Source of the DNA: Megalobrama amblycephala
Lineage: Eukaryota > Chordata > Actinopteri > Cypriniformes > Xenocyprididae
Direction of reading: 5' to 3'
Length of the DNA stretch: 64,000 bases
NCBI RefSeq assembly: GCF_018812025.1
Contig: NC_063049.1
Coordinates: 18,778,651 to 18,842,650, forward strand
Positions 1,552 through 28,389 of this stretch are shown here, piece after piece. The notes under the pieces are model-generated. The model saw only the letters and a list, made by a program, of their open reading frames with translations. It was not told where the DNA came from and did not search any database. Position 1 is the stretch's first letter. Every line of letters starts with the position of its first letter. The position numbers and the translations under genes are program-made.

Positions 1552-2650
1552 CTAGCCTGACGTGGTCATACTCAATTCTAGTCAGAATATGAGTCTGATA
1601 CTGCTCCATTGGGCTTTGATTATGGGGGCGTATTTCAACCGATCCAGGAAAGACCTCAATTGGATAGACCTACAACCAATCAGAGCTACAGAGTAAGTGA
1701 CGTATGTTGAGCGACGCATAGTTGTCAACAGAACTCTTCTTAGCGACCATCGGGGCCAGCTGATAAATCAAACTTTTGCCGAATCCCGTAGGAAGGACGG
1801 CAAAGACATCTTTCCCATCGACAAATGCCTTGATCGCGGTCCTCTGTTCCTCTTTTAAAATTAATGCACTGTCGATATCTTCTATAACAGACGCGATGGC
1901 GGGAACCTACACATCTCAGTTCTTCAACAACAGCCATCATTGTTGTAAACTAATTGACCTTTCGCAAAGACTCGCCCCCCCTTAGTTACTGTTGCTTTGT
2001 CCGACAAGCCGTGGCGCTGTCACGCCACACAGAGTGGAAAATACATCGCGGAGCAAAGAGGAAACTGACAACACATCGACAGACGAGACAGAGCAGGTTA
2101 CTTATGATATTAAACAAAGTCCCAGCTTTCAAACTGTGTAGTTATTAAAAAAATTCAAACAATAAAAACCGTTTTGTGGCTCTTTAATGTGTTGTGACCA
2201 TGATCGTGACAGATTGCTGTAGCGCCTCAGCTCAAGAGGCTCGTGAACCGATCATCTCTTCCTACTAGTCCATTTATAGCATCAAATAAACATGAATGAA
2301 CATGAGAATGAATGTTGTTTCAAACGCGGAAAGATGTCAATATGCACAATTTTTCAAGTTTAACTCCACCGATGTTAATCTTCTAACTCCTGACTGCTTT
2401 GTCGGACAAAATGGCGGATGCAGCGTTCTGATTGGTTAGATCGCTTGTCAATCAAACTCCCCAAGCGCTCTTTGATGACGTGGCTGATTACGTTTCTGGT
2501 GATAATCTGTCAATCATCGCCCTGACAATGTGATTGGTCCGAACAGTTTCTGTTCGGGCATAATTACTCCTCTACGGAACGAGTCCAGACTGAACTTCCC
2601 GACCTAAAAATGTTGTGGGCGGGGCTAAGTTCGGCTGGCATCCAGGCTAG
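1552..2650. mobile_element. Inverted-repeat DNA element carrying a RecQ-like helicase fragment
   Basis: The element begins CTAGCCTG and ends CAGGCTAG, an 8-bp perfect terminal inverted repeat. It is flanked by TATTCAT on both sides (1545-1551 and 2651-2657); the identity extends to TAGTATTCAT if part of the repeat is counted as flank, so the duplication length is ambiguous between 7 and 10 bp. The interior is more GC-rich than the surroundings and contains several ATTGG/CCAAT-like motifs (about 1676, 2430, 2530) and a helicase-like reading frame on the minus strand. It is probably a non-autonomous or decayed transposon. The superfamily was not assigned because the 7-10 bp duplication fits more than one. 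Confidence 0.7.
1670..1906 (-). pseudogene. RecQ-like DNA helicase N-terminal fragment (79 codons)
   Basis: Read on the minus strand from 1906 to the stop at 1670-1672, this frame gives a run containing EEQRTAIKAFVDGKDVFAV followed by VLPTGFGKSLIYQLAP. The second part is a good match to helicase motif I (Walker A, PTGxGKS) of RecQ/DEAD-type ATPases, and the preceding Q-rich segment matches their motif 0 region. The frame has no ATG of its own and is preceded by GTGTAG, which could be a splice acceptor. It stops soon after motif I, so motifs II-VI are absent and it cannot be an active helicase. It sits inside the inverted-repeat element 1552-2650, so it is probably a remnant of a gene carried by a larger autonomous relative. 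Confidence 0.65.
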
Positions 2651-10225: not shown

Positions 10226-11725
10226 TGCATAAAATTGTAGAGAAAATACAGTCTCACCTAACGTTTCAGAATCAGAATAGATCCAACCAATAAATGTGCT
10301 CAGATATACCAGGATGCCAAAGTCTGCAATCAAAATTCAGAGATTTCAATATGAACTCAAACATTTCCCATCAAACCCTTCTTAGAACTCCATTAAGCCT
10401 TCTGAGCAATGAAAGGGCATCCTTAGAGCGATAAAAATTCCTCAAACTCACACACATGAATCCACTGTGGCTTTGGTGGTGACTTTCTTACTACGCTTAC
10501 AAAGAAACCTCCATCTCCACACCTTTTGCAGAAGGGGCCGCTTCAAAAATGGCCAGCTGCAGAGCCTGCCTGCCAAGTCCACAGAGCGGCCGTTGGCAAA
10601 ATGTTAACACTGAGAGTTCATCTCCCCAAAAGATTGGAGGGGACATTAGCCAAGGCAAACTCTGCTTTTAGAGGAGGGGTATTTTGAGTCCGTTAAACAG
10701 TGGGTCCATAAAAGTTGTTAGTAGGCACTTAACCATCTGTACACACAGCCGCAAAAGAATGCATTTGAATATTTTTCACGCACACTGCCTCATCTGCATA
10801 CTGACCTCTAATAACCAGTGTGTCCTCTACAGCCTATTCCAGCACACGCAGCACATTTATAATATCATTTCCCTTTAAAGCGCGACCCATCTGGGAGCAA
10901 GCTGTCGCAAATGTACTCATAGATGAATGTACCTTCTTTATGCTTTTCTTTCTTTTTTTGCAGATGCAGTGACATCGAATTCAGGAGACTAAAAAAAACT
11001 ATTGCCTTACTCATGCATAAAGCACATGACTAATGACCAAATAAGCATTTCTATCATCGAGATCGAGAATGAAAAATATGTGACCCATATGCGTTCTTTG
11101 GCAAGATAAAGACTGAAATGAGAAGCTGTCAGAGTTGCAAATGCTCAAGCAACAGCGTTTAACGGAACACTTGTACAAATTGTCCTAACTAGCTGATGGT
11201 GAAAGGAGGAGAGGAGAGGTCGCGGAAAGACAGCTTGCACTAATGGGCATGTTTTTCTGCGAAGAGAACAAATCTACGGTAATCAGGAAGAGTATTTACA
11301 CGGACACTTATTATCACCTTTGTGCCGTCTCGCTGCAAGAGAGGAACTATTTAAAAGACGAGGAGATTGTGTTTGTTCATACTTTAGCTTAGAGGCTGAA
11401 GTACGTTCGGTAAACTGCACTTAATGAAGAGGCATGCATTAACTGTTGAAATGGTAATGAGTTGAATGTTAACCGTGCTGAAAATGCTAAATGTATCTCT
11501 AGGCGGCTTAAATATATTCCGTTGGGGATATTTCAGGCATTCAATAAAAATGGATGCGTTAAAGGCCCTAAATGAAACAGTTTACATGAGCGATTATCTG
11601 AATCATGATGCCTGCGATCATAGACCCTAATGATTCTCATTACTCGCTTCTCACTGACGATCAACCATATGGTGGTGGAAGCCCACACAGAGACTAGGTT
11701 TCCCTATTGGGACCGCACATCTCAC
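10226..11725. other. Apparently single-copy sequence 3' of thsd7b exon H
   Basis: This is the beginning of the intron after exon H. No repeat family was recognised. The segment 11040-11650 has no simple repeats and several homeodomain-type TAAT motifs. No further TSP1 exon (phase 0 start expected) is visible here. Confidence 0.4.
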
Positions 11726-11904
11726 CTGATTCTTGAGGTCTAGTTTGGGGCATGGCCGCCCGCCGTTGAACGGCTTCTCCCGAAGCCATTTTGACCTGAT
11801 TTTCAGCCCGCTGCCGCAGGAGGCACTGCAGGCCGACCATGGTGACCAGTCGCTCAGCTTGCAGTCCAGAGGGCAGGGCACGTGGCAGACCTCCTCCACC
11901 AGAC
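11726..11904 (-). CDS. thsd7b: thsd7b exon H (TSP1 repeat)
   Basis: The 179-bp exon starts after TTTCGCAG and ends at a GTGAGA donor. It enters in phase 1 and leaves in phase 0. It encodes GLVEEVCHVPCPLDCKLSDW and goes on with SPWSACSASCGSG, then RSKWLREKP, GGRPCPKLDLKNQ. This is a textbook TSR. WSPW gives the tryptophan ladder and C-mannosylation motif, and CSASCG is the Cx2-3(S/T)CG protein O-fucosylation site. The arginine after the SCG segment and GGRPCP complete the module. It is the most conserved part of the gene seen here. The next exon, expected to start with a 'VxEVPC'-like phase-0 codon, was not found below 11725 and is probably outside the window. Confidence 0.93.
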
Positions 11905-12148
11905 CTGCGAAAGAACATGTTGAACAATCAGAGTGGCCGAACCCCTGCCATTCACCATCACGCTAACAATGTTAGCGGAAACACCTTGTGCCGATGCTGA
12001 GACCTCGTCTAATTTACACTGACAGTTCAGGGCACCCCACAGCTTCCTATTTGACTAATGACTGCTCGCCTTTCCAGCAGAGACGAATTACTTAACTCTT
12101 TACTGAGAGAGAAAGAAAGGAAAAGAAGATAGAAACAAGTAGACGAAC
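11905..12148 (-). other. Short thsd7b intron G-H (244 bp)
   Basis: Donor GTTCGT at 12148, acceptor TTTCGCAG ending at 11905. It is the only compact intron of the gene in this window. The upstream side contains a pyrimidine stretch suitable for splicing, and no repeat is inserted in it. Confidence 0.85.
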
Positions 12149-12415
12149 CTGATTCGCTACAAAGGTCTGGGCTAACCAGGTGGGCTTCATGGTCCAGACA
12201 GGCCACGGCACGATAACGCAATCCCTGACCACAGTCACGTGCCTCTCTGCGACCCCTCCAACCCTGGAGGGATCCTTGCGCCTGGGTCTCCGACAGGATA
12301 CAAGATGACCAGTTACCATATGGCTGAGAAACAAACTCCTCACACGGACAGGGCTCGGTCTCCACCAGAGGATACAAGTCTTCCCGCAGACAGCGGTCCT
12401 GTTTTCGGCTCCGAC
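12149..12415 (-). CDS. thsd7b: thsd7b exon G (TSP1 repeat)
   Basis: The 267-bp exon starts after TATTTTCAG and ends at GTTCGT, a weak but usable donor. Phase 1 in, phase 1 out. It encodes GRSRKQDRCLREDLYPLVET, then EPCPCEEFVSQPYGNWSSC, a variable linker, and DCGQGLRYRAVACLDHEAHL before ending in CSESG. It completes the TSR begun in exon F and starts the next W...C-type module (GNWSSC...DCGQGLRYRAVAC). The linker region (about 12235-12290) is rich in Gln, Gly and Arg and is the least conserved part of the visible protein. Only 244 bp separate this exon from exon H, whereas the other visible introns are 2.4 kb or more. Confidence 0.92.
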
Positions 12416-12772
12416 CTGAAAATAGAAAGAAAGACGGTAAAAAAGATGGAGCAATAAATAACAGACACGTCATCAGAATTTTTGGTGCCATTCAGATGAA
12501 ACATTCAGACAGCACTCTGCGAGCTCATGTGTCTAATGTACTTATCTGTCTATGAAAATTATTAAAACATTAATGATTTCTGGATAACTGGACCATTACT
12601 CACTCTGCTGTCAAATGTGGACTGCTAAGTGCCAATGCAAACATCCCCAGGGAACGATTAGAGAACTATTCTGAGTAGACTGAAATGGAAACGCTCAGTG
12701 ACGAGTGCAAGACGACAGAATAATTTCCTCAAGCAAACACAACATTCTTTCAGCACATTTTATATGATGGAG

Positions 12773-16268: not shown

Positions 16269-18094
16269 CAGTGGTGTAGTCTAGTTTTTTGTAGTGAGTA
16301 TACTGTGATTTTTCCCTCACAGCCTCACACCCGTCCCAGATCGACACCCCATAAGCACTGCCACACTCTCTAATGAATATAGTATTGAATTTAGAGCATT
16401 CTGAAAGACTTAAATCTGGGCAAAACAAGACTTTAACATCCAATGACATTTACAGCTGAAGAGACCTGATGATTTTCTACTGTTTAGTGTCAGTCACCAT
16501 CTAACTCAGCCAGTTGAGATAGCCTTCGATGTTATATGAATATGATCCCTGGATCATAGGTTTTATCAGCTGGCAAGTTTAAAAGCACATTTAAGAGTGC
16601 AAATTGCAACTATTATTACAAAATGCTGGGTTAAAAACAACCCAAGTTGGATTGAAAATGGACAAACCCAGCAATTGGGTTGTTTTAACCCAACTATTGT
16701 GTAAAAATTGCTGTATTGCTTGCTTAAAATGAACCCCAAATAGGTTGGAAATTTACATGTATGAATATTAAATATAATAATTGAACAATAAACACTTAAA
16801 TAGTTTATTAATAAATGATCACCTTTTGATTATTATTGTTGCCTCTATACTTGTGTCTGATTTTTAATTTCCAATCTATTTTGGGTTCATTTCAAGCCAG
16901 CCATATAGTAATTTTTAAACAATAGCTGAGTTAAATAAAACTACCCAGCAAGTTGGGCAAACATTTAACCCAACTGCTGGGTTAAAACAACCCAATCCAT
17001 TTTCAACCCAACTTTGGTTGTTTTTAACCCAGCATTCTTTCCATTATTGTAACAATAATGGAAAGATGAGGCTTATCAGCATGTCACAATATAACCCCGT
17101 TTGGACTTTATTTTCTGTTTTTCTGTAGTTTTTCTGTGATTTCCTGCCAATCTGTCATTATATTTATGCATTTAAATCACTAACTTGAAATTCGATTCAA
17201 TATCAGTTATTTTGGATATAGCTACATAACAAATTTGCTCAAGAAAAAAAAAAAAAAAAACTCAACTAATGCTGTAAATGGGAATCATTTGGTACTACAT
17301 TAATATTGAAGGTTAAAATGAAGTGATTTGTATACAAATTTAAACTACACTTGAGGAAATTTTTTTGTAAAAATAAAGTAGGCCTACTAACTTTAAAATT
17401 ATCCAATTCGTTTTTTGAAATATAAATGGTGGCTGTCAACTTGATGGATTTTATTCAAACATTCATTAGGCTATTGAAGAACATTAAAAATTATAATTAG
17501 GCCTAATATGTAATGTGCATATATTTAGCTGAATGCTCCTCTCTAGAGTTCACTTTTCTAGCTGATTAATGAGTTTATGGTCACTGAATATGTTTGTTCT
17601 GAGGTAAATGTGACGTTACGTGACATTGTTTACAAGCTGTTATAATGTCTTTCCGCGGTTAAAACACTGATTACGCGAATACACGAGACATGATATAGAT
17701 TTAGTTAAGTTGTTCTGTATATTTTAACATAACGTTACCTTCGGAGGTTCATTCATGTTTATTTCGCGCTGTAACTGGTATTAAAGCAGAGAAGAGGATC
17801 AGTTCACGGGCGCTTCATGCTGCCGCTTCTCTTGAACTGAAGAGGTGCTACAGCGGTCACGACACATTGAAGAGCGCCAAAACGGTATTTGTGTTTTTTT
17901 TATTTCGTAGTAAAATGGCCAGAATTTGAAATATGATACTATGTTTCATGTCAAAAGCAACAAACCACAAATCTTATTGTGATTTATTGGATGGTTACGT
18001 ATCCTCGCGCTTTTTAAGTGGGTATACGGAAATCCTTGACCTTTCCTAGTGGGTATACGGCGTATACCTGCGTATCACGTAGACTACACCACTG
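16269..18094. mobile_element. hAT-like DNA transposon, non-autonomous (1.83 kb)
   Basis: The terminal inverted repeats are CAGTGGTGTAGTCTA at the left and TAGACTACACCACTG at the right, a perfect 15-bp match. They are flanked by a perfect 8-bp target duplication TCCCGCCC (16261-16268 and 18095-18102), the hallmark of hAT insertion. The perfect duplication suggests a fairly young insertion. No transposase frame was recognised inside. A second element (16624-17034) is nested within it. Confidence 0.92.
16624..17034. mobile_element. MITE nested in the hAT element
   Basis: Begins TGCTGGGTTAAAAACAACCC and ends with its near mirror (GGTTGTTTTTAACCCAGCA). More copies of the AACCCAACT/CAACCCA motif occur inside, so it can fold into a long hairpin. 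It has no coding capacity. It lies wholly inside the 16269-18094 element and therefore inserted later or was carried with it. Confidence 0.8.
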
Positions 18095-18640
18095 TCCCGC
18101 CCCATGGACAGTCAGATTGGCAGAGGGTTGTCGTCAAAAATAAAAAGCGCATTATGAATGATTACGTTTTTGGCAACAGGGAATGCCACAGCTCTTTTCT
18201 CTAGTCATGTAACACAGATTTCATTTTTCCCCACATTTCTACTGCATAGACAGCCAAGTTTTATTAAAAGCCCATCTTGCCAGCAGTGAATACTCCCTTT
18301 AATAATGAGTATAATTACATTTACATGTTAGACACACCATTGCCAACAAAAACACTTCCAAGTGAAGCCAAAGCAGAATTGTCTCTGAGCAACACAAAAC
18401 GAACCAATACCTGAATAAATCAGTGTGGTTGAACAGTCACTTGTTTTGTTTCTAAATAAATCAGTGTGGTTTAATTAATAAGTGAAATAAGACAGCATTG
18501 CTGTTCACTGTGGAATGATGTCAGACATGAAATGCTGACAATGCTAGTGTATTGCATTTAATGTGGCTCCTACTATGCACTTCACAGTGGCATGAATTCT
18601 CTTCCACAGAGAAAAGTAAAGAGAATAGGAAAGAAATCTA
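18095..18640. other. Short non-coding stretch 3' of the mucin-like gene
   Basis: Begins with the right-hand TCCCGCCC duplication of the hAT element. The remainder is AT-rich sequence with a duplicated 'aataaatcagtgtggtt' motif (18414-18430 and 18456-18472). No coding segment was seen. Confidence 0.4.
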
Positions 18641-18649
18641 GGAGTATAT

Positions 18650-18673
18650 TTTATTGCAGTAGTATTTTTTATT
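18650..18673 (-). terminator. Two AATAAA polyadenylation signals
   Basis: On the minus strand AATAAA occurs at 18673-18668 and again at 18655-18650, 26 and 44 bases after the stop codon of the long repeat exon. Their number, position and orientation fit the 3' end of the mucin-like transcript. AATAAA is common by chance in AT-rich DNA, so it counts as supporting evidence only. Confidence 0.6.
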
Positions 18674-18698
18674 GCATTGTATATAGAGAAGACAGATG

Positions 18699-20561
18699 TT
18701 AAAAGAGGTTCAGGTCTTCAGGGAGCAGGAGTGTCAGAAACAGTGGATGCAATAGTTTGAGATCCAGGGGCAACTGAGAGGCAATGGCAGTCTGAGAGGC
18801 AGTGCCAGTCTCCGATGTAGTGACCGTCTGAGAGGCAGTGACAGTTACCCATGGAGTGCCAGTCTCCAATGTAGTGACCGTCTGAGAGGCAGTGACAGTC
18901 TCCAATGTAGTGACCGTCTGAGAGGCAGTGACAGTCTCCGATGTAGTGACCATCTGAGAGGCAGTGACAGTCTCCAATGTAGTGACCATCTGAGAGGCAG
19001 TGACAGTCTCCAATGTAGTGACCGTCTGAGAGGCAGTGACAGTCTCCCATGCAGTGCCAGTCTCCGATGCAGTGGCAGTCTCAGAGGCAATGGAAGTTAA
19101 AAGGCATTTTAAGAGGCAGTGTTGTTTCCAAGGCAGTGTCAGTCTGAGAGCTAGTGTCAGTCTAAGAGGGAGTGTCAGTCTGAGAGGCAGTGTCAATCTC
19201 TGAGACAGTGTTGGTCTGAGAAGCATTGTCAGTCTCACAGGCAGTGTCAGTCTCAGAGGCAGAGTCAGTTCCTGAGACAGTGTCAGTCTGAAAGACAATG
19301 TCAGTCTGAGAGGCAGTGTGAGTCTCAGAGGCACTGTCAGTTTAAGAGGCAGTGTCATTTCAGAGTCAGAGTCAGTCTCAGAGGTAGCGTCCATCTCAGA
19401 GATAGTGTCAGTCTGAGAGGCAGAGGCAATGGCAGTCTCAGAAACAGTGTGAGTCGGAGAGGCAGTATCGATCTCAGATGCAGTGGAAGTCAGAGAGGCA
19501 GCATCGATCTCAGATGCAGTGGAAGTCGGAGAAGCAGCATCGATCTCAGATGTAGTGGAAGTCGGAGAGGCAGCATCGATCTCAGATGCAGTGGAAGTCG
19601 GAGAGGCAGCATCGATCTCAGATGCAGTGGAAGTCGGAGAAGCAGCATCGATCTCAGATGTAGTGGAAGTCGGAGAGGCAGCATCGATCTCAGATGCAGT
19701 GGAAGTCGGAGAGGCAGCATCGATCTCAGATGCAGTGGAAGTCGGAGAAGCAGCATCGATCTCAGATGCAGTGGAAGTCGGAGAGGCAGCATCGATCTCA
19801 GAAACAGTGTGAGTCGGAGAGGCAGTATCGATCTCAGATGCAGTGGAAGTCGGAGAGGCAGTATCGATCTCAGATGCAGTGGAAGTCAGAGAGGCAGCAT
19901 CGATCTCAGATGCAGTGGAAGTCGGATAAGCAGCATCGATCTCAGATGCAGTGGAAGTCGGAGAAGCAGCATCGATCTCAGAAACAGTGTGAGTCGGAGA
20001 GGCAGCATCGATCTCAGATGCAGTGGAAGTTGGAGAGGCAGCATGGATCTCAGATGCAGTGTGAGTCGGAGAGGCAGCATCGATATCAGATGCAGTGGAA
20101 GTCAGAGAGGCAGCATCGATCTCAGATGCAGTGTCAGTCGGAGAGGCAGCATCGATCTCAGATGCAGTGTGAGTCGGAGAGGCAGCATCGAATATCAGAT
20201 GCAGTGGAAGTCAGAGAGGCAGCATCGATCTCAGAAACAGTGTGAGTCGGAGAGGCAGCATCGATCTCAGATGCAGTGGAAGTTGGAGAGACAGCATGGA
20301 TCTCAGATGCAGTGTGAGTTGGAGAGGCAGCATCGATATCAGATGCAGTGGAAGTCGGAGAGGCAGCATCGATCTCAGATGCAGTGGAAGTTGGAGAGGC
20401 AGCATGGATCTCAGATGCAGTGTGAGTCGGAGAGGCAGCATCGATCTCAGATGCAGTGTGAGTCGGAGAGGCAGCATGGATCTCAGATGCAGTGGAAGTC
20501 GGAGAGGCAGCATCGATCTCAGATGCAGTGGAAGTCGGAGAGGCAGTGCGAGTCTCAAACA
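18699..20561 (-). pseudogene. Exon 3 of a novel secreted mucin-like gene (frame broken by 1 bp)
   Basis: The exon starts after a strong acceptor (CTTTCTCTTGTCAG) in phase 1 and encodes VFETRTASPTSTASEIDAAS and onward. About thirty 12-residue units of the type ASPTSTASEIDA follow (20557 to about 19450), then irregular units (19450-19090), then about eight units of the type TASQTVTTLETV (19060-18765), and a hydrophobic tail LPLDLKLLHPLFLTLLLPED before the stop at 18699-18701. The composition (Ser, Thr, Ala, Pro, with a regular Glu/Asp) suits a heavily O-glycosylated secreted protein. A single extra A at 20191-20192 shifts the frame; reading straight through stops at 20158. Beyond that base the repeat frame stays open for about 1.5 kb to 18699. 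This could be a sequencing or assembly error, a polymorphism, or a real lesion. No known protein was recognised. Confidence 0.65.
18720..20557. repeat. 36-bp coding minisatellite (about 1.8 kb)
   Basis: From about 19450 to 20557 the unit is 36 bp (key parts GTCGGAGAGGCAGCATCGAT and CTCAGATGCAGTGGAA), about 30 copies. Variant units with AAACAGTGTGA recur at intervals, suggesting higher-order amplification. From 18720 to 19440 the units are more diverged; 18800-19060 also has a clear 36-bp period (GTGACCGTCTGAGAGGCA). Because 36 is a multiple of three and the unit lacks stops in most frames, several frames are open on both strands. Only the minus-strand frame is supported by splice sites and upstream exons. 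Confidence 0.95.
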
Positions 20562-21090
20562 CTGACAAGAGAAAGCAGAATCTTTATTTGAATCAGTATT
20601 GTGGTTAATAGGATTAAAGAGGTTCATATTTAGTTGATTGCTCTGTTGGGGAAAAGTAGTAATTTATCTTTAAATGTCAAGCTCGCCCTTTCATCATTAA
20701 ATCATAAACCAGAAATTAGCATTGGGTTCGAGTACACCTCAGTCAAGTTTGAGTCTTTAACCAATCGAGTTCGAGGTTAGAAACATTATTTTTCTTTTGG
20801 CCTCGTACTTAGAAGTTGCCATCATGTGTTTAAAGAATTGCTTCATTTTCCCAGCAAAAATGAATAGTAGCCTAACTCACTAGCACAAGTAAAAAGTTCT
20901 GTACCGTAGATATGTAAACAGCCTAATTACTAATTACAAGTTATAGGACACCAACAGCGCTACTCGGTTGCAATTAGAAACATTTTTCGAGTCCCTAAGG
21001 CTTGAGTCCGAGTCAAGTCAGAGTAAAAATGCATCCGTGACAAGTGACTCAAGTCTGCACTCTAGCAGAAATTGACGTATTTCATGATAC
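20562..21090 (-). other. Intron 2 of the mucin-like gene
   Basis: A 529-bp interval with a GTATCA donor after exon 2 and a pyrimidine-rich TTTCTCTTGTCAG acceptor before exon 3. Both junctions are phase 1. No repeat family was recognised inside. Confidence 0.65.
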
Positions 21091-21153
21091 CTTTCAAAGC
21101 TGGGCTTGTCCTGAACAGAGCATCTTCCTCCTTATCAAGAATGACATTCAGGC
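21091..21153 (-). CDS. Exon 2 of the novel secreted mucin-like gene
   Basis: A 63-bp exon bounded by an acceptor ending CTGCTCTAG and a donor GTATCATG. Phase 1 in, phase 1 out, so the length is a multiple of three and the exon could be skipped without a frameshift. Joined to exon 1 it reads G-LNVILDKEEDALFRTSPAL-K, an acidic then neutral segment without cysteine. This might be a propeptide or spacer between the basic N-terminus and the repeat domain. The support is that three independent exons share phase and orientation and sit between a promoter-like region and poly(A) signals. The exon is small, so taken alone the call would be weak. Confidence 0.55.
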
Positions 21154-21309
21154 CTAGAGCAGCAAATTTAAAAAAATACAAAATATTTAAATTGTGCACT
21201 CATCAAAACACATTTAAATGGAGTTAAATGTATTGCCTAAATAATAATTTACTTAATTTACATGAATACATGCTAAGACGGACAGATGTTACAATAACAA
21301 TGCAATTAC

Positions 21310-21457
21310 CTCGATATTTTGTTTGCCACTCCAGTTGTCCCTTTGTTGTCTTCATTTTTGCTTGTTTGCTGCTCTTCAATTGCTTTGCATCAGGTGAGTG
21401 TTTGTTCACCTTGGTACAGCAAAATTGTAACAGCAAGAAACTTGCAGCGATCAGCAT
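21310..21457 (-). CDS. Exon 1 of the novel secreted mucin-like gene (signal peptide)
   Basis: ATG at 21457-21455 starts MLIAASFLLLQFCCTK, a short hydrophobic run typical of a signal peptide, with likely cleavage near the Cys-Cys or shortly after. The mature N-terminus is strongly basic (VNKHSPDAKQLKSSKQAKMK, then GQLEWQTKYR). The exon ends in phase 1 at a GTAATT donor. An upstream in-frame ATG at 21649 would bury the hydrophobic run 64 residues inside the protein, so the internal ATG is preferred. The gene lies on the same strand as thsd7b, inside its F-G intron, and is not related to it by sequence. The product is presumably secreted; function unknown. Confidence 0.6.
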
Positions 21458-21691
21458 GGCTGTTTGTTGACAACCAGCGTAATCTTTGAGACTTGTAGAC
21501 AATCTTAGTCTTGTAGACAATCTTGAAGATTGAATACAGACTTTTGGATCGAGCAGCAATATGTAATCACGCAAAATGAAACTTACAGACTGAATATTGT
21601 CAGCAGAACGAATCTTGAAATCAAGCAGACGTCGGACTACTATATTCAACTAATTCAGAACATGCAGTAATACAGACAACCAAGCAGACTG

Positions 21692-21714
21692 AGTATTTTA
21701 AACAGTGATGTCAC
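21692..21714 (-). promoter_or_regulatory. Possible core promoter of the mucin-like gene
   Basis: On the minus strand TTTAAAATA (21702-21694) is a TATA-like box about 240 bp upstream of the proposed ATG. Just upstream is TGACATCA (21713-21706), one base from the CRE/AP-1 core. This would leave a 5' UTR of about 200 bases. The call is positional only. Confidence 0.35.
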
Positions 21715-22057
21715 AGTGATATCACTGAACATTCCATAAAGCTGTGTTGCAGCTGGACATTCTTTAGACTCAGAGTTAAAGAAAAGACTTCTAGCCCATC
21801 TAGCCCTGTATTTCTCTAATAATCACACTGATCTCATTTATCAACTGCCCCCTCTTATTGCCTGTCTGATCTGCTTATAAAACAGTATTCAAACTAATAC
21901 ACCAGTCATATATATAAATGAAAGGATCATAAAATCCTAAATAAGGCATTGTAAGAGACTGCTAGCGATGTATGTCTGCACATGATGGTATGCATTTATT
22001 TATTTTATAAGGGGAAACAAATACGAAAACTAAAACGTTGCTGTTTTATGCAGAGAA
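21715..22057. other. Upstream flank of the mucin-like gene
   Basis: About 340 bp with no recognised repeat or coding segment. It includes 'gtgatatcac' (about 21716-21725), a short palindrome near the proposed promoter. Confidence 0.35.
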
Positions 22058-22466
22058 TGTGACCCTGGACCAAAAAAAACAGTCAAAAGTCACACGGCTA
22101 TATTTGTAGCAATAGCCAACAATACATTGTATGGCTCAAAATTATTGATTTTTCTTTTATGCCAAAAATCATTAGAATATTAAGTAAAGATCATGTTCCA
22201 TGAAGATATTTTGTAAATTTCCTACCATAAATATATCAAAAATGTATTTTTGTATAGGATATGCATTGCTAAGGACTTAATTTGGATAACTTTAAAGGCG
22301 ATTTTCTCAATATTTTGATTTTGCACCCTCAGATTCCAGATTTTCAAATCCTATCCTAACAAACCACACATCAAGAGAAAACTTATTTATTGAGCTTTCA
22401 TATGATGTATAAATGTTAATTTAAAAAAATTGACCCATATGACTTGTTTTGTGGTACAGGGTCACA
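22058..22466. mobile_element. MITE with TGTGACCCTGGACCA ends
   Basis: Starts TGTGACCCTGGACCAAAAAA and ends GTGGTACAGGGTCACA, a mirrored terminus with one mismatch. This is an abundant type in cyprinid genomes. The 409-bp body is AT-rich and non-coding. Confidence 0.85.
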
Positions 22467-23407
22467 AATACAAGAAATAGTTAAACGGTGAATAGTTAAA
22501 CAAGGTTTCCCTTGTTTATTAGCATCAGAGATCCAGACATTTGAAATGTGCAAGAATGCAACATCACAGTTTGCTCAAAAAGTGTCAGCAGTGCTCAAAG
22601 TGAGCTGGTGTTGTGCCGAAATTCGACTGCCCTCCGTGTGCACGCGTGACATTATTTGTTGACATCAGTGCTGCCAATGAATTTAATATGTTTGTGCTGC
22701 CCTTTCATTTTCATTTTATTTATTTTTTGTAGTTATCGCACCCTTATGTGGATAAACATTGTTTGTTAAATGTCTTGAGAACATAATGAATTGTTACATA
22801 ATGTATTTTTGAAATTCAATTTAAAAAATGACAAATTAATAAATAAATAAATAAATAAAGTTGCACACTGTTTGCTCTTTAAAGCTTTTTGTAACCAAAT
22901 CTTTTCCAGTCAAGTTACACCACGACAACATTAAACATTCAAGTCTTCTCATTTTTGTCTTGTGATCTATTATTTGGCTGTAAATAACAGGACCATGTGT
23001 AGGCCTATGCAATTTAAGTAACATAACTGAACATACTGAAGAAACGCCATCATTAAAACTTGAGTAATGGGTCTTTGGCAATTGTCAGCCAATAATTTAC
23101 TAATTAACTGAAATTAACATTTTATTGCTGACAACAGATATAGTATTTCTTGTGAAATGTTTGTTATACATACACATCAAATAAATGTGATACATTAAAT
23201 TGATTATAAGTGACCATTGTTACATGAAATCACTTCTAGGTTGGGTCTTCTGTCATGAGTTGTGTAGTATGAAGTGCACGAAGATGAAGGTTCAAGTTCA
23301 AAATAGAGTTTAAAAACATCCACAGCTAAATCCAATATACAAATGAGCGAAGCAACAACAATCATAGATGAGAACCAACAAAACACAAGGAGAACACACA
23401 TGAACGT
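22467..23407. other. Intron F-G sequence, no gene recognised
   Basis: AT-rich, with a short AAAT tandem at 22838-22858. No coding segment or recognised repeat. Confidence 0.35.
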
Positions 23408-27131: not shown

Positions 27132-27423
27132 ATTTTCGTCAAGACGGACATTTTTACATATCTTATTTGACTGTTCAAACAAAATTAGCCGCAAAAGAGA
27201 ACTCAATTTGCTTAAAGTTACAGTCTCTTGGATCAGCAAGGAGTTAAGCAAGCTTGCTAAAGGGAAGAATGGTTATTGCACAAACTCGAAACCCTTTGGT
27301 TACCAGCCTCATAGCCTTTTCTCATTAGTGTAATTAGTGCATAAGATTTGGGGGTGGTATAATATATGCTGGATATTCACAACTTTGTGAATCACTCCGA
27401 GAAGTTGTCTGAATGTATCTCAC

Positions 27424-27615
27424 CTGTTAGGGTGCGTTTGCGGGTATGTCGGCTCCCACATCCAGAGCATTCAGAGAATTTAGACCAGGAACTGAAGGTG
27501 CAGTCATCCCTGCAAGGCACCCAGCAGCTCCTGAAGCGTGACGGCATCGGCCCGGCCCACCGGAGACACTCTGACACGGCTGCCATCTCATCATACTCAT
27601 CCACACAGCTCACTC
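27424..27615 (-). CDS. thsd7b: thsd7b exon F (TSP1 repeat)
   Basis: The 192-bp exon lies between TGCCCTCTCAG and the donor GTGAGA. Phase 1 in, phase 1 out. It encodes GVSCVDEYDEMAAVSECLRW, then AGPMPSRFRSCWVPCRDDC, then TFSSWSKFSECSGCGSRHTR and KRTLTG. The first half closes a W...C module and the second opens a new TSR. In this TSR the second tryptophan of WxxW is replaced by phenylalanine (WSKF), as in other THSD7 proteins. The CSGCG segment lacks the Ser/Thr needed for O-fucosylation. It stands alone, with introns of 12.6 kb before it and 15.0 kb after it in transcription order. Confidence 0.92.
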
Positions 27616-28389
27616 CTGAGAGGGCACACAATCAAACACAGCTTTAATACAACAGTCATTTGCTCATGGATAGAAAATTTGTGATATAGTTCTTCAGGCA
27701 TTAACGTGGAAGCAAATTCATGGAAATGTATTTGCAGCCGAATTGCACATGGTACAGAGACTAAAAGCCATTAACTTTCCCCCACAACTCTTTCTTCTAC
27801 AGAGCTGATTTCAGATCCTCTCACATGAAAATAGTCCTCCTCTGCATCACCGCCACTGAGGGACAGTAAATGATATGCTTGGCAAATGTGAAGCCGCCTG
27901 TTACCTTTTCAGCACACTGCATCCATTCCACCCACAAGCTGATGTATTCCTTACAGACAGCAAAGATTGTGCCGAGGACTTTTCCCTCACTGACTTAAAT
28001 TTGCCACTCTGCCTTACATGATGACATGTTTTGACACAGTCCTCTACAGCATGGCTTGTTTCCACTCAGCAGAGGCTTTTCAAGGGAGCACAGTTAACAC
28101 ATAGCTATAACAATGACACTTGAAGGGAACTTTTCAAACTGTATGGAAGAGCTTATTATTGGTTCCACAAAATTATTAAACAACAAATAAAAATACATTG
28201 ATTGTTCCAAACGATCAAGACATCAGGCAAGCTTTAATATAGAAAAAATAAAAGTGGATTTTACCATGGTAAACACTGCAACATATGCTCTTTCATTGTT
28301 TATTGCTTTTATAGAACAGTGGCAGCAATATAATAAACTAATGGTAAAAAAGTATCCAATATAATTAATGTATAGTTCATTTTATTAAA
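27616..28389. other. Intron E-F sequence next to exon F, no gene recognised
   Basis: Looks single-copy up to about 28100. No splice-bounded coding segment was seen. Confidence 0.4.

Follow-up and report, generated by a model that had tools for sequence, protein, structure and literature searches.

The 64,000-nucleotide stretch of the Megalobrama amblycephala genome analysed here (contig NC_063049.1, positions 18,778,651 to 18,842,650; below, the window) carries on its minus strand a three-exon locus. We consider it, with a probability of about 0.68, to be a now frameshifted member of a small and apparently lineage-restricted family encoding a secreted repeat protein, and among the copies found the one preserved best. 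The window copy is most likely a recently broken member of this family, whose products would be rich in Ser and Thr. The exon-intron structure, the splice phase, the frame and the stop recur in paralogues, each in at least one of them. In the assembly, the window copy has a frameshift in the tenth unit of its repeat array, leaving a truncated reading of 204 amino acids (aa). A protein-coding origin of the locus is well supported, because gene features recur among the copies and the gaps in the tail of exon 3 keep the frame when compared with noncoding stretches. All evidence on the locus comes from one genome and consists of DNA sequence.

An initial annotation of the window had described three minus-strand exons with GT-AG splice signals and phase-1 joins, and all of these are present where it placed them (Table 1). 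The product of exon 1 starts with the hydrophobic N-terminus MLIAASFLLLQFCC (mean Kyte-Doolittle hydropathy 2.81 over 9 residues) and continues with a basic stretch, the remainder of the exon coding for 10 Lys/Arg against 2 Asp/Glu. The annotated signal peptide is plausible from this hydropathy, but the counterpart in paralogue C1a, MLLRNCLVLYRHCF, has charged residues inside the hydrophobic run. Exon 2, the annotated 63-bp spacer, codes for a 21-residue linker with the core VILDKEEDALF. Exon 3 contains an array of 30 units of 36 bp (ASPTSTASEIDA) followed by degenerate 18-bp units over about 660 bp, which read LPLRLT and then SETVTA, and its product ends in LPLDL..LPEDLNxF with an AATAAA close by. 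The annotation gave 12-residue Ser/Thr/Pro/Ala repeats, but part of the tail is rich in Leu and Arg instead. A 690-aa reading of the window copy is composed of Ser, Thr and Pro to 41 % (Cys 0.6 %), and no N-x-S/T sequon occurs in it.

Copies of this arrangement elsewhere in the same genome lift the locus above chance. C1a aligns with the window over the upstream region (79 % identity), the 5′ untranslated region (UTR, 76 %), exon 1, intron 1, exon 2 and intron 2. Exon 1 was found again in C1a (73 % nucleotide identity, with gaps of 6 and 3 bp) and in C14b, and in C1b it is split by an insertion. Exon 2 aligns without gaps with C1a and C1b (95 % and 94 %), intron 1 is 90 % and 91 % identical to theirs, and two aligned parts of intron 2 are 84-90 % identical to both. 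In these two C1 copies, exons 1 and 2 accompany the repeats. The exon 3 acceptor CAG/TGTTTGAG occurs at three places in C1b and once, inverted, in C1a. The last exon of C1b is open for 380 aa from this acceptor to the homologous stop, with a single N-x-S/T sequon. The stop TAA is common to the window, C1b and C14c, and C14c also shares with the window the stretch (CAATGCAATAAAAAATA) that contains the first of the two AATAAA signals. The annotated spliced protein-coding structure is therefore supported, with exons, splice sites, phase, frame, stop and polyadenylation signal recurring in one or more of the copies. None of the copies read is intact, and the window is the only one with exons 1, 2 and 3 in order and free of insertions. 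C1a has an inverted piece of exon 3 together with insertions. C1b has exon 2 twice and three exon-3-like exons, all starting from the CAG/TGTTTGAG acceptor. One of these three opens as exon 3 does but closes as exon 1 does (ELEWHSTKYRG/gt), so exon modules have been shuffled within the family. Further copies, even an intact one, may exist, because the search of the genome scored the best candidates (in one case the best 150 of 379) and the DNA search skips simple repeats.

Table 1. Features of the locus, its paralogues and the host gene. Positions are those of the window unless a contig prefix is given; a slash marks an exon boundary.
Feature	Position	Strand	Details
Exon 1	21310..21457	-	148 bp; ATG at 21457-21455; donor GAG/GTAATT
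Intron 1	21154..21309	-	156 bp
Exon 2	21091..21153	-	63 bp, LNVILDKEEDALFRTSPALK; phase 1-1; acceptor CTCTAG/, weak donor AAAG/GTATCA
Intron 2	20562..21090	-	529 bp
Exon 3	18699..20561	-	acceptor TTGTCAG/TGTTTGAG; stop TAA 18701-18699; broken by 1-bp insertion
Doubled T, shifts frame	20191..20192	-	tenth unit: GATATTCGAT in place of GATATCGAT
Stop codon met by spliced frame	20158..20160	-	after 204 aa
Two AATAAA polyadenylation signals	18673-18668, 18655-18650	-	placed by eye
TATA-like TTTAAAATAC box	about 21702-21693	-	placed by eye
Host gene segment	12027..27631	-	thrombospondin type 1 matches of open reading frames at 27392-27631 and 12027-12491, same strand
C1a	C1:48.07 Mb		paralogue
C1b	C1:48.98 Mb (C1:48981500-48988400)		paralogue
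C14b	C14:46.28 Mb		5′ half, without repeats
C14c	C14:47.79 Mb		3′ part
C14d	C14:44.62 Mb		3′ part

The frame of exon 3 was compared between the window and C1b. At a gap-opening penalty of -12, the strictest used, the nucleotide alignment of the tail has gaps of 18, 18, 18, 108, 3 and 9 bp, none of the six off-frame, and all 522 aligned bases are in frame. In the noncoding control of 919 bases, consisting of intron 1, the 5′ part of intron 2 and the 3′ flank, 15 of 17 gaps are off-frame, and the bases scatter over the three frames. About 8.5 off-frame gaps would be expected in the tail at this penalty (Poisson P about 2e-4 by hand calculation). At all three penalties used, exon 3 had proportionately fewer off-frame gaps than the noncoding stretches, and neither of the two gaps between exon 1 and its C1a counterpart is off-frame. 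That selection kept exon 3 in frame once the copies had diverged is supported by these alignments, not proven, because slippage by 18-bp units favours in-frame gaps and MAFFT places the gaps differently.

Several observations weigh against a coding history of this kind. At a penalty of -8, two of eight tail gaps are off-frame (520/522 bases in frame; noncoding control 16/19 gaps), and at -5 the count rises to eight of 17 (490/525 in frame; control 20/25). With MAFFT, both window/C1b gaps (17 and 131 bp) and three of five window/C1a gaps are off-frame, and slippage by 18-bp units would inflate in-frame gaps without selection. C14c stays in frame for 240-307 of 354-360 bases, depending on the penalty and on whether it is compared with the window or C1b, and C1a has an 8-bp deletion just 5′ of the stop. 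The ratio of nonsynonymous to synonymous substitution rates (dN/dS) in the exon 3 tail is 0.50 in the true frame and 0.82 and 0.95 in the other two, which speaks for coding; however, it was calculated from a protein-guided alignment that favours the true frame, and differences at the three codon positions (25/32/42) are only weakly skewed. Within the array, 29 of the 30 units differ from the consensus at 0-4 of 36 bases; when the unit with the extra T is left aside, 37 of 49 changes are nonsynonymous and 12 synonymous. As this fits the neutral expectation of 0.685-0.704, there is no sign of purifying selection among the units. Exon 1, at 73 % identity to C1a, lies below the introns and the 3′ flank (84-91 %), exon 2 and the exon 3 tail; its dS (0.54) and dN (0.31) are both high, its 12 nonsynonymous and 5 synonymous changes on the window branch are near neutral, and the identity of the 5′ UTR is low as well. 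The exon chain itself is, taken alone, not above chance: with donors of at least 6/9 consensus matches, some ATG-exon-exon chain can be built from 54 of 120 acceptors drawn at random from the rest of the window, and for 13 of the 120 there is one with a start hydropathy of at least 2.2. At a donor cut-off of 7/9 the real chain is missed too, and the null of this stricter version was not used. Since chance chains are common in the window, the splice chain alone was dropped as an argument. The openness of the repeats was rejected as coding evidence because the consensus unit is stop-free in five of six frames.

Taken together, constraint at the protein level is weak, and fast evolution or recent loss would both fit. 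We do not claim positive selection on exon 1, as dS is raised along with dN. Branch counts for the exon 3 tail (window 16 nonsynonymous and 8 synonymous, C1b 12 and 11, over 312 bases) were not relied on because the alignment is poor at the 3′ end and the C14c stretch ends two bases before the stop. Over window positions 21750-21310, the 5′ UTR and exon 1 differ from C1a by about 25-27 %, more than intron 1 on their 3′ side (about 10 %); gene conversion or fast evolution may have raised the divergence of the former.

The upstream side was also inspected. The TATA-like box and the two AATAAA signals of the initial annotation are present when read by eye, and by the same means conservation of the TATA-like box in C1a or C14b is not clear. 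A TATATAAG box lies about 58 bp 5′ of the ATG in C1a and about 70 bp in C1b. The same site reads TCTACAAG in the window and TCTGCAAG in C14b, so a promoter element may have been acquired by the two copies on C1. C14c and C14d adjoin reverse-transcriptase-like open reading frames (ORFs) with near-identical readings (Pfam E 0.027 and 0.03, below the cut-off).

The nature of the frameshift is the point on which the strongest competing explanation turns. The joined frame, which the initial annotation carried through the whole 1.86-kb exon, ends early because an extra T sits in repeat unit 10. Beyond it another frame is open for 503 aa up to the stop of exon 3. The locus could be a working gene. 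The extra T would then stem from a faulty assembly or from a minor allele, or the 204-aa product would itself be functional. Consensus errors are known in repeat arrays, and the defect is a single doubled T inside one; moreover, the rest of the frame reaches the shared stop, and among the copies read the exon order free of insertions is peculiar to the window. However, the frameshift is present in the assembly, the window has an intron 1 donor GTAATT where C1a, C1b and C14b have GTAAGT, and exon 1 evolves at least as fast as intron 1. We regard a working gene as unlikely on this balance. Slightly less probable in our view is its fuller form, a working, unnamed, lineage-restricted family of secreted Ser/Thr-rich glycoproteins with fast turnover of its exon modules and repeat array, the window gene as its main member, the frameshift an assembly error or polymorphism, and a role resembling that of egg polysialoglycoprotein (PSGP) or of a mucus coat protein. 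That the window copy as assembled encodes a long secreted protein, as first proposed, is not supported in view of the frameshift, the GTAATT donor and the neutral unit changes.

A more radical alternative is that the locus is a noncoding minisatellite beside chance ORFs and was never a gene. The repeat frames are open through composition, the units vary neutrally, chance splice chains are common, and some alignments have off-frame gaps in exon 3, all of which would suit it. Against this, exons 1 and 2, the splice phase, the stop and the AATAAA recur together with the repeat in other copies, and exon 3 is poorer in off-frame gaps than noncoding sequence at three penalties, which makes a mere minisatellite very improbable.

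The locus is nested, on the same strand, in an intron of a THSD7-like gene, judging by the thrombospondin type 1 domains of the minus-strand ORFs around it. The two matches that flank it directly fall below the Pfam cut-off; the adjacent ORF 11651-11962 clearly exceeds it. The host intron is here about 15 kb long. The initial annotation had named the host thsd7b; the domains point to a THSD7-like gene. A literature search for thsd7b with a nested gene found none. The intronic position and the shared strand would also suit alternative exons of the host gene, but the unit brings a start exon, a stop and a polyadenylation signal of its own, and the copies on C1 carry it while a search of about 13-20 kb on either side revealed no host exon (six host ORFs as queries; one weak match in C1b, E 0.007), although with a host intron of about 15 kb an exon just past these flanks could be missed; we find this explanation hardly credible. 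No thrombospondin type 1 match was detected by Pfam in the three nested ORFs scanned. A copy inside a second host gene was rejected, as no host exon was seen in the examined flanks of C1a and C1b. At window positions 1670-1906 of the minus strand lies an ORF with FAVLPTGFGKSLIYQ, which we take to resemble a fragment of a RecQ-type helicase.

Searches for relatives agree with the statement of the initial annotation that no family is recognised. Pfam gave no family above the cut-off in the readings of the nested gene or its paralogues, and PDB sequences no relative above threshold for the first 80 aa as query. No significant relative came from a protein collection for which it was not established whether fish proteins are included; one search returned two matches with E 0.31 and 1.8, the others none. 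That search scored the 7995 candidates sharing most words, a selection that the repeats may have swamped. Whether fish databases already annotate the family lies beyond the reach of such searches. A match to COX16 was rejected as chance (E 0.013, 16.3 bits against a cut-off of 27; E 0.042 in another scan), and the profile was not found in the C1a, C14b and C1b readings. An RNA gene was rejected, as Rfam gave no match at the gathering score in 17500-23000. Homology to C1a spans 18095 to 22033, and isolated pieces, some of them in a different order, reach to about 24400. Capture by a transposon seems unlikely, the copies differing in their ends (no repeat library was searched).

A recently broken family member would fit the following history. 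The predicted signal of exon 1 would export the product, in which the Ser/Thr repeats following the basic stretch may serve as an O-glycosylation scaffold, giving an extended, hydrated coat or storage glycoprotein. An egg, sperm-coat or mucus function, as initially proposed, might be supposed for it. The array would grow and shrink by unequal exchange and the family would undergo birth-and-death turnover, with the window copy recently broken or present as a null allele. If so, an intronic minisatellite can be what is left of a family of coding genes, one overlooked when frames are read singly and by the profile and protein searches applied here, and the locus offers a testable example of repeat-protein genes being duplicated, exon-shuffled and lost. 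An intact allele or orthologue, should there be one, would represent a secreted repeat glycoprotein not described before in fish.

Among known systems, nested lineage-specific genes under birth-and-death turnover are a known general kind. The locus likewise is intronic and on the same strand as its host, and has several partial copies that are rearranged and hit by insertions. It resembles mucins in having a hydrophobic N-terminus of the secretion type and one large exon of Ser/Thr-rich repeats, and Ser/Thr/Pro-rich tandem repeats are found here as in gel-forming mucins. However, the latter have von Willebrand-type cysteine-rich domains, of which none is above the Pfam cut-off in the readings of the locus or its paralogues, and the partly Leu/Arg-rich tail (LPLRLT) differs as well. 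Hyosophorin and PSGP are tandem-repeat glycoproteins of the cortical alveoli of fish eggs, and carp hyosophorin was reportedly cloned (Tsao et al. 1999, as cited in PMC13079451). The locus resembles them in coming from a fish and in its many near-identical short peptide repeats, with 30 units of 12 residues. In the N-linked hyosophorin group the repeat bears N-glycans, and the lack of a sequon in the 690-aa reading argues against membership of the locus in it. Ser and Thr are abundant, and the locus may or may not belong to the O-linked PSGP group. Two published accounts describe the PSGP/hyosophorin class as tandem identical peptides with a very high carbohydrate content, and PSGP repeats as O-glycosylated, with a polyspermy block and osmoregulation as proposed roles (PMC3528131, PMC9630641). 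By analogy, this fish-egg class may be the nearest working analogue of the product.

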